This document shows, one piece after another, positions 416 to 7,267 of a DNA stretch of 10,018 nt. Made by a program: the position numbers and the translations under genes. The DNA is taken from NCBI GenBank assembly GCA_946480635.1, contig CAMLKV010000050.1:1-10018 (forward strand), given 5' to 3'. The stretch's first letter is position 1. Each line of letters starts with the position of its first letter. Source of the stretch: an uncultured Flavobacterium sp. Lineage in GTDB: Bacteria; Bacteroidota; Bacteroidia; Flavobacteriales; Flavobacteriaceae. The notes under the pieces are model-generated. The model was not told the origin of the DNA. It saw only the letters and a list, made by a program, of their open reading frames with translations, and did not search any database.

Positions 416-445
416 TTGCAAAAATATAAAAAGATTGTATATTTG
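416..445 (+). promoter_or_regulatory. Promoter of the SRP RNA gene
   Basis: TTG at 416-418 is followed after 19 nt by TATATTTG at 438-445, an exact match to the Bacteroidota TTG-(N about 19)-TAnnTTTG promoter. The predicted start, 5-7 nt downstream, coincides with the first paired base of the SRP RNA terminal helix (G450). The agreement between promoter and RNA end supports both calls. Confidence 0.75.
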
Positions 446-449
446 CACC

Positions 450-543
450 GGCAAGTCCTACACGACCAGCTCCTGCAGACTCCTCCAGGGTGGGAACACA
501 GCAAAGGTATGCGGTTGTAGCGGTGCGATGTAGGTCGCTTGCC
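450..543 (+). ncRNA. ffs: Small signal recognition particle RNA (4.5S / SRP RNA)
   Basis: This is the RNA scaffold of the signal recognition particle, which binds Ffh and FtsY to target membrane and secreted proteins co-translationally. The conserved domain IV hallmark is visible: GTG (490-492) and CAC (497-499) close a GGAA tetraloop (493-496). Immediately outside is the symmetric loop CAGG (486-489) opposite AGCA (500-503), the Ffh M-domain binding site also found in E. coli 4.5S RNA. The ends pair as GGCAAG (450-455) with CTTGCC (538-543), followed inward by CCTAC (457-461) with GTAGG (530-534). The length, about 94 nt, fits the small bacterial class without an Alu domain. A T6 run at 545-550 directly follows the closing helix and could terminate transcription. 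G+C is clearly higher than in the surrounding DNA, as expected for a structured RNA. Confidence 0.93.
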
Positions 544-575
544 ATTTTTTATTGAATTTAATTTGATTTTTGTGG

Positions 576-1628: not shown

Positions 1629-2432
1629 ATGAATAAAGTTGTAATAATAACTGGTGGTTCATCAGGAATTGGAAAATCAATAGGAGAGTTCTTGCAAGAT
1701 AAAGGCTATACAGTTTATGGTACAAGCCGTAATCCTGAAAAGGTTCAAAATTCTAAAATTCCATTAGTAGCATTGGATGTTAGAGATAGCGAATCTATTT
1801 ATAAAGCAATTGGAGAAGTTATTGCAAAATCAGGAAGAATTGATGTTTTAATCAATAATGCTGGAGTTGGTATTACTGGACCAATTGAAGAAATACCAAC
1901 TGATGAAATGCGTAATAATTTTGAAACAAATTTCTTTGGACCAATTGAAGTAATTAAAGCAGTTTTGCCTCAAATGAGAAGTCAAAAATCAGGTTTAATC
2001 ATCAATATTACATCAATTGCGGGTTATATGGGATTGCCTTACCGAGGTATTTATTCAGCTTCAAAAGGAGCTTTAGAATTAGTAACTGAAGCGCTTCGAA
2101 TGGAAACAAAACAATTTGGTATCGAAATTACAAACATTGCTCCTGGCGACTTTGCTACTAATATTGCTGCAGGTCGTTATCATGCACCAGTAATAAAAGG
2201 ATCTGCTTATGAAAAAGTGTATGGAAACACATTGGCAGAAATGAATACACATGTTGATTCAGGCAGTAATCCTATAGAAATGGCACAAGCAGTTTATGTA
2301 ATAATCAATACTCCAAAACCAAAAATTCATTATAAAGTAGGTGCATTTATGCAAAAATTCTCAGTTGTTTTAAAAAGAGCTTTACCAGATAAAGTATATG
2401 AAAAAATGCTAATGAATCATTATAAATTGTAA
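1629..2432 (+). CDS. Short-chain dehydrogenase/reductase (classical SDR family)
   Basis: A 267-residue classical SDR: a cytoplasmic NAD(P)-dependent oxidoreductase with one Rossmann domain. The cofactor motif TGGSSGIG is at residues 8-15, the NNAG motif at 76-79, and the catalytic triad S129, Y142, K146 (YSASK) with the usual Ser-to-Tyr spacing of 13. A basic residue in the stretch after strand 2 (TSRNPEKV) favours NADPH, which is inference. The C-terminal 60 residues resemble SDRs acting on hydrophobic or steroid-like carbonyl substrates, but the true substrate cannot be determined. It follows the epimerase gene by 11 nt with no terminator or promoter between, so both are probably on one mRNA. 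Whether the two enzymes share a pathway is unknown; this SDR type is common and generic. Confidence 0.87.
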   Translation: MNKVVIITGGSSGIGKSIGEFLQDKGYTVYGTSRNPEKVQNSKIPLVALDVRDSESIYKAIGEVIAKSGRIDVLINNAGVGITGPIEEIPTDEMRNNFETNFFGPIEVIKAVLPQMRSQKSGLIINITSIAGYMGLPYRGIYSASKGALELVTEALRMETKQFGIEITNIAPGDFATNIAAGRYHAPVIKGSAYEKVYGNTLAEMNTHVDSGSNPIEMAQAVYVIINTPKPKIHYKVGAFMQKFSVVLKRALPDKVYEKMLMNHYKL

Positions 2433-4710: not shown

Positions 4711-4905
4711 TTAATTGCCAAAAAATATGAGTCCAAAACAAGAACCAAGGCCAATTATAAATGTTATTACTGAGTATATTATCATTTTTGTAGCTATTTT
4801 TTTCGTTTCTTCAGTCTTATAGCTGATGAGCATAATTAGACCAACAATAAAAACAACAACACTTATTAAAAGTATAAATGAAATGATAAAAAATAAATTA
4901 TCCAT
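4711..4905 (-). CDS. Small two-helix membrane protein, paralogue of the preceding gene
   Basis: A 64-residue protein with two predicted membrane helices, about residues 4-28 and 40-62, joined by a short basic loop with KTEETKKIATK. Nearly all the rest is Ile, Val, Leu and Phe. It shares a clear pattern with the 66-residue protein encoded just upstream: VGLIM, then KT in the loop, A-x-KM-x-I-x-SVI, and IG-x-G-x-C near the end. The two genes look like an old tandem duplication. It is the last gene of the Lgt-like / radical SAM block, 12 nt after its paralogue. I do not recognise a named family. It could be a scaffold, an accessory or a substrate of the upstream enzymes. The start ATG at 4905 is the only sensible one. 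Confidence 0.7.
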   Translation of the reverse strand: MDNLFFIISFILLISVVVFIVGLIMLISYKTEETKKIATKMIIYSVITFIIGLGSCFGLIFFGN

Positions 4906-4917
4906 AAAATTAAAGTA

Positions 4918-5118
4918 TTAGTGCATTGAGCCTAAAGATAAGTTAGTTAAACAAGTTCCAAAACCAATTGCAAAAGCTATTACAGAAATAATCATCATTT
5001 TCACAGCTGTTTTTCTATTTGTTTTAGAAACAATTGCCATAATTAATCCAACTAAAAATACTATTGGAGCTATACAAGCTATAATTGCTCCTATACTTGC
5101 TAAAGTATCTGAATCCAT
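4918..5118 (-). CDS. Small two-helix membrane protein following the radical SAM gene
   Basis: A 66-residue protein with two predicted membrane helices, about residues 7-30 and 40-58, linked by a basic loop (SKTNRKTAVK, residues 31-40). By the positive-inside rule the loop is likely cytoplasmic and both ends outside. The second helix ends in GFGTC (C56), matching GLGSC in the paralogue downstream. The start codon lies only 4 nt after the stop of the radical SAM gene, so translation is probably coupled and the product functionally linked to it. There is no signal peptide cleavage site and no known domain I can name. The reality of the gene is supported by the tight spacing and by the conserved paralogue next to it. 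Confidence 0.72.
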   Translation of the reverse strand: MDSDTLASIGAIIACIAPIVFLVGLIMAIVSKTNRKTAVKMMIISVIAFAIGFGTCLTNLSLGSMH

Positions 5119-5122
5119 AGTG

Positions 5123-6364
5123 TTAATTTAAAACTTTTCTAATTTCTTCGATTGTGTTATCTCTGTAAAATAAATTCATTGTCTCAAAAGGAACCATTTT
5201 TCCTCTTTTATCTACAATATGAACACAAGATTTTTTCACTGCTCTAACATCAAAATCATGTGCATCCATGAAATTCATTATGATAATTCGGAATAAATTT
5301 TCATAATGCAAAGAATCCGATTTTACTCTTGGTAAACAACACATTAATTCACCAAATTCTTCTTCGGCACAATCTACAGAAATCCCAGTACTGAATAAAT
5401 TCAGCATATGATCTTTCAATTTTTCATCGTTTTCAAATACTATGGTGTTTTTTGAATTATTCAATAAATCTTCAGGATTAATCAAATGGGTCATTGGTAA
5501 TACTTCACCATCAATTTTTAATGCGTAAGCCATACATAATGCATCTGGATTACATGGTACCGGAATTAAATCCTGTGGCGTAAAAACAGGGTATTGTTCG
5601 TATATCTTTCTGCGTACTTCTGTCAATGTGATGCGACCAGCATTATCGTCATAATTTTCATTTCGTCCTGCGACTTGTGTTGGTTGAAATGTTACGCCAC
5701 GAACACACTTTTGTTGTAAAGCATATTCTAAAATTTTACCTATTTCATCATCGTTTTCACCTTTTTGTAAAGTGATAACTAGCGTAGTAGATAAGTTGAA
5801 TTTATTTAAATTTTCAATGGCTTTTTTTCGTACTTCAGTTAAATCCTCTCCTCTTAATTTTTCTAAAACTTCGGGTTTAAAACTGTCAAATTGTAAGTAA
5901 ATCTCAAAATCGGGCATATAGGATGCTAATTTTTCAACAAAATTCACGTCTTTGGCAATACGAATACCATTGGTGTTTAACATCAAATGTCTGATGGGTT
6001 TACTTTTAGCGATATCCAAAATCTCAAAAAACTGCGGATGTACTGTAGGTTCTCCACCTGATATTTGCACCACATCTGGTTCTCCTTCATTGGCAACAAT
6101 TACATCAAACATTTTTTCTATTTCTTCCAAAGTTCTGTGATTACCATAATTAGGACCTGAACTCGCATAACAAGTCGGACAAGCTAAATTACATCTATCA
6201 GTTACTTCAACTATTGAAAGACAAGAATGTTGCTCGTGATCTGTACACAATCCACAATCATAAGGACAGCCATAATGTACTTTGGTATTGAATTTTAATG
6301 GAATTTCAGATTGTTTGTTATAATTTCTTATTTGACGGTAATATTCTACATCATCAGCAATCAT
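5123..6364 (-). CDS. Radical SAM protein, COG1964 / tetraether-lipid-synthase-like (main body; N-terminus lost to a frameshift)
   Basis: 413 residues as it stands. The radical SAM cluster motif CX3CX2C is C58-C62-C65 (CNLACPTC), and SAM-binding GGEP is at 103-106. Upstream is another cysteine group, C33-X3-C37-X2-C40 with C48 (GCPYDCGLC, then HSC). Further cysteines lie in the C-terminal part (PCNPDALC, and C-A-E-E-E-F-G-E-L-M-C-C). Extra clusters flanking the core are typical of the COG1964 group, which includes archaeal tetraether synthase Tes and Methanocaldococcus MJ0619, enzymes that act on unactivated carbon. The actual substrate here is unknown. The first ATG of this frame (6364) is probably not the native start: an N-terminal piece lies in another frame at 6397-6504 (see that entry). 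The gene follows an Lgt-like gene and precedes two small membrane proteins, suggesting a membrane or lipid substrate. Confidence 0.82.
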   Translation of the reverse strand: MIADDVEYYRQIRNYNKQSEIPLKFNTKVHYGCPYDCGLCTDHEQHSCLSIVEVTDRCNLACPTCYASSGPNYGNHRTLEEIEKMFDVIVANEGEPDVVQISGGEPTVHPQFFEILDIAKSKPIRHLMLNTNGIRIAKDVNFVEKLASYMPDFEIYLQFDSFKPEVLEKLRGEDLTEVRKKAIENLNKFNLSTTLVITLQKGENDDEIGKILEYALQQKCVRGVTFQPTQVAGRNENYDDNAGRITLTEVRRKIYEQYPVFTPQDLIPVPCNPDALCMAYALKIDGEVLPMTHLINPEDLLNNSKNTIVFENDEKLKDHMLNLFSTGISVDCAEEEFGELMCCLPRVKSDSLHYENLFRIIIMNFMDAHDFDVRAVKKSCVHIVDKRGKMVPFETMNLFYRDNTIEEIRKVLN

Positions 6365-6396
6365 AACTTTCGAATCACCATGAGTTTTGCAATGCT

Positions 6397-6504
6397 TTAG
6401 CAGACTTTTTCATCTTGAAAAATAATTTTAGCATCTACTAAATGTAAACATTCAGGACACAAACTTTTTGTATAATCGTAATAAATATAATCTCTGTTAG
6501 GCAT
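6397..6504 (-). pseudogene. Displaced N-terminus of the radical SAM protein (35 residues, ended by a -1 nt frameshift)
   Basis: ATG at 6504 opens a 35-residue frame (MPNRDYIYYDYTKSLCPEC and on) ending at TAA 6399-6397. It overlaps the stop of the Lgt-like gene by 8 nt (ATGCCTAA), a typical coupled start. It carries C16-x-x-C19. The partner half of this metal site, H-C-K-T-H-G, is in the frame of the radical SAM body just upstream of its ATG at 6364. Adding one A to the A5 run (plus-strand T5 at 6406-6410) joins the two into one 460-residue protein reading DEKSLLKHCKTHG, with C16, C19, C39 and H42 as a likely zinc or iron knuckle. A 4-nt deletion is an alternative. It may be a sequencing error or a true mutation; I cannot tell which. 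Confidence 0.8.
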
Positions 6505-7228
6505 TTAGTGGCATTGCTTTTAAAATTCTAAAGTAAAATTTGTAATAATAAATAAATATAAAGATAGAAATCCAATGGATAATACTCATTCCTAAAAATA
6601 AAGGGTGATATGGCTTAATAAATTCCACTGTGAACCGATATAAAAAATAACTAATCATAAACAGTTTAAAACGGTCACCATTTTGTAACTCTTTGTTCTT
6701 AATAGGCATAAATAGAAAGATAAGTAGCAACATTGTCATTATTTCATAAAGTGCTACTGGATGCCTTAGTTTGCCATCTCCTAAATTCATTCCAGTAAAA
6801 AAAGATGTTTCAATGCCATAAGTTGGTTCTAAAATACCCATTCCGAAACATCCAATACGTCCGATAATAATTGCTGTTAAAATAGGTATTACATAAATAT
6901 CTCCCGATGCTATTTTTATTCCAATTATTTTTTTGCATAACTCCACTCCAAACAACCCTCCAAAAAAACCTCCAGCGATTGTTTTATTTTGATAGAATGT
7001 AAGCCAAGTTTGATTTACTATTTCATTAGGATTTTCGAACAAAGCAATAACTCTAGAACCAAGTAAAGCACCAAGCATAGCAGATAATAAAATCCAGAGT
7101 CTATTCATGTCAGAAATAGGATCTTGAATCCCTTTTCTTAAAAAATAATAGAGTCTAATGCCTATAAAAAAGGCAAGAGTTTCCATTATTAAGTGAATAG
7201 TTGGCGCATTATCGAAAGGTAATATCAT
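6497..7228 (-). CDS. Lgt-family membrane protein (prolipoprotein diacylglyceryl transferase paralogue)
   Basis: An integral membrane protein with about seven helices. The frame also contains an upstream GTG at 7258 (253 residues); I prefer ATG at 7228 (243 residues, MILPFDNAPT), since GTG starts are uncommon here and the A-rich leader fits. In 253-residue numbering: GGFFGGLFG at 96-104, GRIGCFGMG at 133-141, RHPVALYE at 165-172, and YRFTVEF at 207-213. These match the Lgt landmarks FHGGL, GRxGN, HPxQLYE and the R..E pair near the end. But the His of FHGGL is Phe99 and the Asn of GRxGN is Cys137, both thought important in E. coli Lgt. It is therefore probably a divergent paralogue acting on another lipid or protein substrate, not the housekeeping Lgt. 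Its stop overlaps the radical SAM start by 8 nt. Confidence 0.78.
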   Translation of the reverse strand: MILPFDNAPTIHLIMETLAFFIGIRLYYFLRKGIQDPISDMNRLWILLSAMLGALLGSRVIALFENPNEIVNQTWLTFYQNKTIAGGFFGGLFGVELCKKIIGIKIASGDIYVIPILTAIIIGRIGCFGMGILEPTYGIETSFFTGMNLGDGKLRHPVALYEIMTMLLLIFLFMPIKNKELQNGDRFKLFMISYFLYRFTVEFIKPYHPLFLGMSIIHWISIFIFIYYYKFYFRILKAMPLNA

Positions 7229-7267
7229 TTTGATTATTTGATTAAGGTAAAACTCCACTATTTTTAC

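Follow-up and report, generated by a model that had tools for sequence, protein, structure and literature searches.

What does a relative of the prolipoprotein diacylglyceryl transferase Lgt do beside a relative of the tetraether lipid synthase Tes and two tiny membrane proteins? This question is raised by a stretch of 10,018 nucleotides (nt) from an uncultured Flavobacterium sp. (assembly GCA_946480635.1, contig CAMLKV010000050.1), referred to here as the window, in which four minus-strand genes are packed together. Genes of these three kinds appeared to form a cassette that is kept together across Bacteroidota. In the window they are as follows (aa, amino acids; SAM, S-adenosylmethionine).

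6497..7258, minus strand: Lgt-like gene, 253 aa from a GTG start, predicted Lgt fold
5123..6504, minus strand: Tes-like radical SAM gene (PF04055, E 1e-30), frame broken here
4918..5118, minus strand: 66-aa two-helix membrane protein, tail Cys56 in IGFGTC (codon 4951-4953)
4711..4905, minus strand: 64-aa two-helix membrane protein, paralogue of the 66-aa one, tail Cys56 in IGLGSC (codon 4738-4740)

The packing described in an initial annotation of this DNA agreed with the coordinates: the Lgt-like and radical SAM genes overlap by 8 nt, the 66-aa gene follows after 4 nt and the 64-aa gene after another 12 nt. The two small proteins, described there as paralogues, are 44% identical. An in-frame ATG at 7226-7228 gives a 243-aa form of the Lgt-like protein, as in several relatives. 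The radical SAM gene had been treated as one gene, but its frame is broken in the window, with a stop at 6397-6399 after 35 codons and the remainder in another frame (pieces 6397-6504 and open reading frame (ORF) 5123-6364). Because an intact homologue (P0002, 461 aa) is 98% identical to the window protein and the frame is open over at least 455 aa in 77 of 80 named relatives (shorter in L069, L074 and L075), the break was attributed to faulty sequencing or assembly or to a mutation at this locus, and was not regarded as a trait of the family. Radical SAM homologues with names were, among the matches listed, from Flavobacterium and 89-92% identical. Gene order was compared by places and ORFs, and co-transcription by a sigma-70 scan, which returned 19 sites versus 17.3 in shuffles and is uninformative for Bacteroidota.

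Co-occurrence of the cassette genes

The enzyme genes were surveyed in 395 genomes evenly drawn from the phylum of Flavobacterium buctense (genome G001, locus L002). The radical SAM profile matched 34 genomes at E <=1e-40, 31 of them at E<1e-100 (the other three being G075, G105 and G311), and the Lgt-like profile matched 32 at E <=1e-20, namely the same 31 and G026. The Lgt-like gene was thus present in 31/31 genomes with the radical SAM gene (E<1e-100) versus 1/364 others (Fisher p 3e-45, a nominal value since sampled genomes share ancestry). Match coordinates placed it upstream of the radical SAM gene, on the same strand and within 350 nt, in 26 of the 31; in G130, G165 and G379 it lay about 1.1-1.2 kb downstream. 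The rare adjacency that the initial annotation had named as speaking against a cassette was therefore not what the survey found. A small membrane protein with a cysteine where its last helix ends (Cys-tail protein) was encoded beside one of the two enzyme genes in 29 of 30 testable loci, G221 being left out as its contig ends directly after the radical SAM gene.

A similar arrangement was obtained when genome contigs were scanned and the best 80 of 339 radical SAM relatives were kept (74-93% identical). Their hosts were Flavobacterium, Pedobacter, Nubsella, Cloacibacterium and other Bacteroidota bins, plus a single record with the title Limnohabitans. The Lgt-like gene was present in 76 of these 80 named loci, and the contigs of L013, L069 and L075, which lacked it, end near the radical SAM gene. 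In 71 of these 76 loci, its end and the start of the radical SAM gene were no more than 150 nt apart; the spacing was wider in L011, L014, L022, L077 and L078. Small Cys-tail ORFs were found within 2.5 kb after the radical SAM gene in 79/80 loci, as one copy in 19, two in 51, three in 7 and four in 2, counts that include a few spurious-looking ORFs. The neighbours of the cassette in the window (ABC-F, fsa, mle and thioredoxin-like genes) gave no match in the Pedobacter loci, so that the cassette is conserved independently of them. Altogether, the cassette is more than a chance neighbourhood, and co-function is well supported.

Two loci of this set showed peculiarities of their own. L001, titled a Limnohabitans metagenome-assembled genome, carried a Flavobacterium-like cassette and Flavobacterium-like flanks, and the contig is therefore probably misbinned. 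In Flavobacterium davisii (L014 7286-7958), the Lgt-like gene was in pieces in different frames.

The two enzymes and their characterized relatives

The Lgt-like protein of the window matched PF01790 (E 9.5e-18, 64.8 bits versus a cut-off of 24.9), and its AlphaFold model (predicted local distance difference test score, pLDDT, 89; predicted template modelling score, pTM, 0.84) had the Lgt structure 5azb as best match, by which the protein is predicted to have the Lgt fold. Among the matches listed, its homologues were mostly named prolipoprotein diacylglyceryl transferase. Escherichia coli Lgt is described in a part of PMC13251419 as absolutely requiring Y26, H103, R143, N146, G154 and R239, with H103 and N146 varying in some distant Lgt proteins; excerpts of PMC4728403 name R143 and R239 as critical and place the active site facing the periplasm. 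The window protein carries H22, F99 and C137 at the positions of Y26, H103 and N146, while R134, G148 and R208 correspond to R143, G154 and R239. The earlier description as an Lgt paralogue lacking key residues thus applies to three of the six, the other three being kept. Compared with E. coli Lgt (5azb/5azc), the cassette protein would share the fold, yet has three required residues replaced and remains far below the cut-off of the NCBIfam Lgt equivalog NF000778 (44.4 bits versus 334).

The same trends were displayed by an alignment of 14 cassette-type members with five ordinary Bacteroidota Lgt proteins. All 14 cassette-type members had Cys at the N146 position and kept R143, G154 and R239, and the H103 position was occupied by Phe, Leu, Ile or Ala, never by His. 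The Y26 position was His in 11 of the 14, Tyr in G130 and G165 and Gln in G026, and E243 was kept in 13 (Asp in G021). Another, higher-scoring PF01790 gene (E <=4e-32) was present in 9/9 cassette genomes tested; the second Lgt copy of G002 had a stop inside the match. The second Lgt of Mycobacterium smegmatis, MSMEG_5408, harbors two of the same changes, Y26H and N146C (according to an excerpt of PMC13251419); that it might belong to a cassette of this kind is no more than a lead.

The radical SAM protein found its best solved structure in 7tol (MJ0619, the tetraether lipid synthase Tes, or GDGT-MAS), with which it aligned almost end to end (E 1.3e-74). Tes and MJ0619, cited in the initial annotation as two enzymes, are one and the same protein (a portion of PMC9433317), and the nearest structure is a lipid synthase rather than one of the soluble-cofactor methylases whose company had been regarded as incompatible with a cassette. 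The rubredoxin motif C-x2-C-x20-C-x2-H (C16/C19/C40/H43) has a spacing identical to that of Tes; it is followed by an N-terminal cluster motif C-x3-C-x2-C plus His (C81/C85/C88/H91), the radical SAM motif C-x3-C-x2-C (C106/C110/C113) and a labile Met, M411, placed at Tes Met439 by chain-sequence alignment (offset 20). All four metal-site motifs were invariant in 33 relatives, the C-terminal cluster being judged by the labile Met alone. The same relatives had an invariant Ile (Ile431) at the position of Tes Tyr459, a residue completely conserved in 1000 archaeal Tes although Tyr459 variants remain active, and the Cys of the archaeal PFCTYN motif is replaced by Glu in the cassette form, PFETMN. 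Unlike Tes, the cassette enzyme stands among membrane-partner genes. Its AlphaFold model had a mean pLDDT of 60 and was not used.

Among NCBIfam models, the window protein scored best with TrsS (279 bits), followed by Tes (237) and WgkB (71). Across the cassette proteins scanned, all seven remained below the cut-offs of both Tes (NF045702, 450; 137-285 bits, best 284.8) and TrsS (NF045646, 490; 189-328 bits, P0002 reaching 325.3). The TrsS-like genes of L137, L140 and L142, of which the two scanned also scored below 490, adjoin a methyltransferase gene, not an Lgt-like gene; no methyltransferase gene was found beside the cassette in the window by ORF and Pfam/NCBIfam scans, this neighbour being a trait of these three loci and not a curated TrsS criterion. 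Both cassette enzymes hence belong to known superfamilies, yet fall short of the curated tests for Lgt, Tes and TrsS.

A tree of 23 rows separated 18 cassette enzymes from five others on the two sides of one branch (support 80/80, 78% of bootstrap trees). Because this support is modest and long-branch warnings were raised, a single origin of the cassette radical SAM enzymes is possible but not firm. The N-terminal cluster motif was missing in three actinobacterial forms and in G105, and the rubredoxin motif of G240 was not found by pattern search. A TGA inside the G379 match, considered as an internal stop, turned out to be the ordinary stop codon, located where the match ends. Two radical SAM genes of the survey came close to Tes itself, that of G075 (L133 6864-8321) passing the Tes cut-off with 493.8 bits and that of G311 (L160 5107-6582) remaining just under it with 441.9 bits; no Lgt-like gene was found in 13 kb around each.

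Small membrane proteins and the possible chemistry of the cassette

When 23 small proteins were aligned, G52 and C56 were the only invariant residues, while mean column identity for the two enzymes was 65% and 84% in comparable sets. Such variability around an invariant Gly and Cys, beside conserved enzymes, would be expected of substrates recognised at a particular site. The tail Cys singled out in the initial annotation is thus the residue kept across the cassette; its count of one Cys per small protein near the end of helix 2 holds for Cys56 in both window proteins, but the 66-aa protein, which ends in LTNLSLGSMH, also contains Cys15. Among 145 distinct small sequences from the 80 loci, collected with a pattern demanding G or A among the four residues that precede the Cys, Gly occupied position -4 in 143 sequences and position -2 in 131, and 4-13 residues followed the Cys. 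Lys and Arg averaged 3.0 in the loop that precedes the last helix, compared with 0.2 across the N-terminal 8 residues and 0.25 for the tail.

A pattern-free check found a hydrophobic ATG ORF directly after the radical SAM stop in 76 loci, and in 75 of them a Cys stood 2-18 residues before the C-terminus; the ORF of L011 was without Cys, L073, L077 and L078 were without such an ORF, and one locus was left out. Control hydrophobic ORFs elsewhere, most probably not genes, had a near-end Cys in 101/203, and the presence of Cys alone, being weak evidence on that account, was dropped as a test. The median ratio of nonsynonymous to synonymous substitution rates (dN/dS) was 0.125 over 643 unsaturated of 1086 pairs (maximum 5.2; pairs not independent), which supports the small ORFs as real genes under constraint. 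The Cys motif occurred in all 120 listed of 166 profile matches, a result favoured by the profile itself containing the motif, and none of these had a precomputed Pfam domain.

In 12 cassette genomes, 20 of 21 small-protein profile hits lay in the cassette, the remaining one being weak and inside a long frame. Profile A3, too narrow for divergent small proteins, gave four hits in 198 genomes, those of G001 and G147 in the cassette and those of G105 and G124 weak and in longer frames elsewhere. No Pfam family matched either window small protein above cut-off; the 64-aa protein scored 20.7 with T4SS_pilin, below the gathering score of 26.6. Identity with T4SS_pilin, suggested by 3 of the 23 small proteins (best E 0.00026), was set aside as a chance likeness of short hydrophobic proteins.

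The cassette is proposed to attach a lipid to the tail Cys and to alter that lipid by radical chemistry, with a probability of about 0.42. The shared function suggested in the initial annotation stands as co-function, while its chemistry and target molecule are ones that we infer. By the positive-inside rule, the positively charged loop of the small protein would be cytoplasmic and the tail Cys would therefore lie at the periplasmic face, where the Lgt active site opens. The Lgt-like enzyme is a candidate for acting on this Cys because Lgt works at that face (excerpts of PMC4728403), and might move a diacylglyceryl or similar group onto it; R134 and R208, matching the critical arginines of E. 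coli Lgt, are kept and were counted for lipidation. GDGT-MAS is described in part of PMC9433317 as binding lipids and passing through a lipid S-C bond. The radical SAM enzyme of the cassette could likewise take hydrogen from an inert carbon of the Cys-bound or donor lipid and then make a C-C or C-S bond at that carbon, in which case the small proteins would be dedicated substrates and not general lipoproteins. A further-reaching outcome seems rather unlikely: a new form of bacterial protein lipidation close to the C-terminus, in which the Lgt paralogue forms a thioether lipid on the Cys at the outer end of the tail helix and the Tes-type enzyme then welds the tail of this lipid to sulfur or to a second tail, so that the small protein spans the membrane or is stapled by lipid.

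Several observations weigh against lipidation of the tail Cys. Three residues required in E. coli Lgt are replaced, Ile431 stands in place of Tes Tyr459, and the presence of a near-end Cys says little by itself. The Cys context, usually G-x-G-x-C, differs from the classical lipobox. A radical SAM enzyme expected in the cytosol and a Cys predicted on the outside would have to meet through the lipid. The association was also incomplete in places: the two enzyme genes were on different contigs in G043 and G281, no small Cys-tail protein was present near either enzyme gene in G043, no Lgt-like gene was found in 8 kb upstream in L065 and no small Cys-tail ORF within 2.5 kb in L077, and G026 (L126 6653-7498) carried an Lgt-like gene alone, in a genome without radical SAM match and with no Cys-tail gene seen near it.

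The main rival, tenable if somewhat doubtful, is a complex that modifies lipids: the small proteins would be its subunits and would serve the Lgt-like protein as structural partners, and the enzymes would work on free membrane lipids. Acyl tails might, for instance, be joined or thiolated, as Tes does with phytanyl tails, and the Gly-rich Cys motif would be a helix-packing or redox element. Tes acts on free lipids (as stated in part of PMC9433317), the Gly spacing fits helix packing, the confinement of small proteins to the cassette in the 12 genomes is what subunits would display, and Zeng et al. proposed membrane-spanning lipids from bacterial Tes homologues (an excerpt of PMC8941075); the kept tail Cys amid near-total variation elsewhere and the one to four copies per locus are nevertheless left unexplained. 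Peptide maturation, in which the radical SAM enzyme would cross-link the small protein (e.g., Cys sulfur to a nearby carbon) with the Lgt-like protein as membrane partner or exporter, appears improbable: the small proteins, variable around their invariant G...C motif and encoded beside a radical SAM gene, are reminiscent of precursor peptides, but the motif is located in a membrane helix and the enzyme is closest to a lipid enzyme, with WgkB far behind TrsS and Tes in score. Hardly credible is a soluble pterin methylase with membrane genes as bystanders. The name 7,8-dihydro-6-hydroxymethylpterin dimethyltransferase is attached to a few homologues among the matches listed, and PF23545 carries the name HMPTM zinc ribbon; however, MJ0619, first reported as a pterin methylase, is a tetraether lipid synthase whose authors could not corroborate the pterin reaction (in a passage of PMC9433317), and the co-occurrence of the membrane genes is tighter than bystanders would show. 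The pterin methylase annotation was rejected on these two grounds.

If lipidation of the tail Cys is true, the cassette links protein lipidation with radical lipid-tail chemistry. The role of bacterial Tes homologues outside producers of branched glycerol dialkyl glycerol tetraethers (brGDGT) was left open by Zeng et al. in a part of PMC8941075, and the cassette offers a genetic handle on them in culturable bacteria; a function is likewise suggested for those Lgt paralogues that carry N146C. Among the matches listed in the open-licence PMC literature, no description of the triad was found and no paper joining tetraether, diacylglyceryl transferase and radical SAM, PMC7641849 containing all three terms of one query 1-4 times each.

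Order variants and other features

Six survey genomes (G021, G104, G105, G219, G274 and G317) displayed the order Lgt-like, small, radical SAM; G105, a distant member, still had Lgt-like and small genes. In G130, G165 and G379 the radical SAM gene was followed by an ICMT-type membrane methyltransferase, DUF4395, the Lgt-like gene and the small Cys-tail gene, as assigned by PF04140 and PF14340 in G130 and G165 and by eye in G379. This deep ICMT/DUF4395 variant is located as follows.

L122, 4784-6941
L123, 5883-8088
L161, 6444-8617

A plasmid collection gave 10 matching records, of which seven were examined (H4, H6 and H7 left out). The triad was found in three actinobacterial records. Mycobacterium branderi and M. 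avium have the Lgt-like gene first, two small membrane protein genes next and the radical SAM gene last. In Nonomuraea the small gene leads, encoding a protein with a long proline-rich front, and the Lgt-like and radical SAM genes follow in that order; the Nonomuraea record is chromosome-size and without gene table, and its ORFs were read directly. All five actinobacterial small proteins had a C-terminal helix with Cys and then TG[LI]NP. A Persicobacter record carried the Bacteroidota form of the cassette, while in M. vanbaalenii, Halorarius and Salinirubellus the radical SAM gene was instead followed by a methyltransferase gene.

Elsewhere in the window, two plus-strand features were recognized.

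1629-2432, plus strand: short-chain dehydrogenase, best NCBIfam model 3-ketodihydrosphingosine reductase (265 bits, below the cut-off of 400)
442-548, plus strand: Bacteroidales small signal recognition particle (SRP) RNA (100.6 bits versus a cut-off of 55.2)

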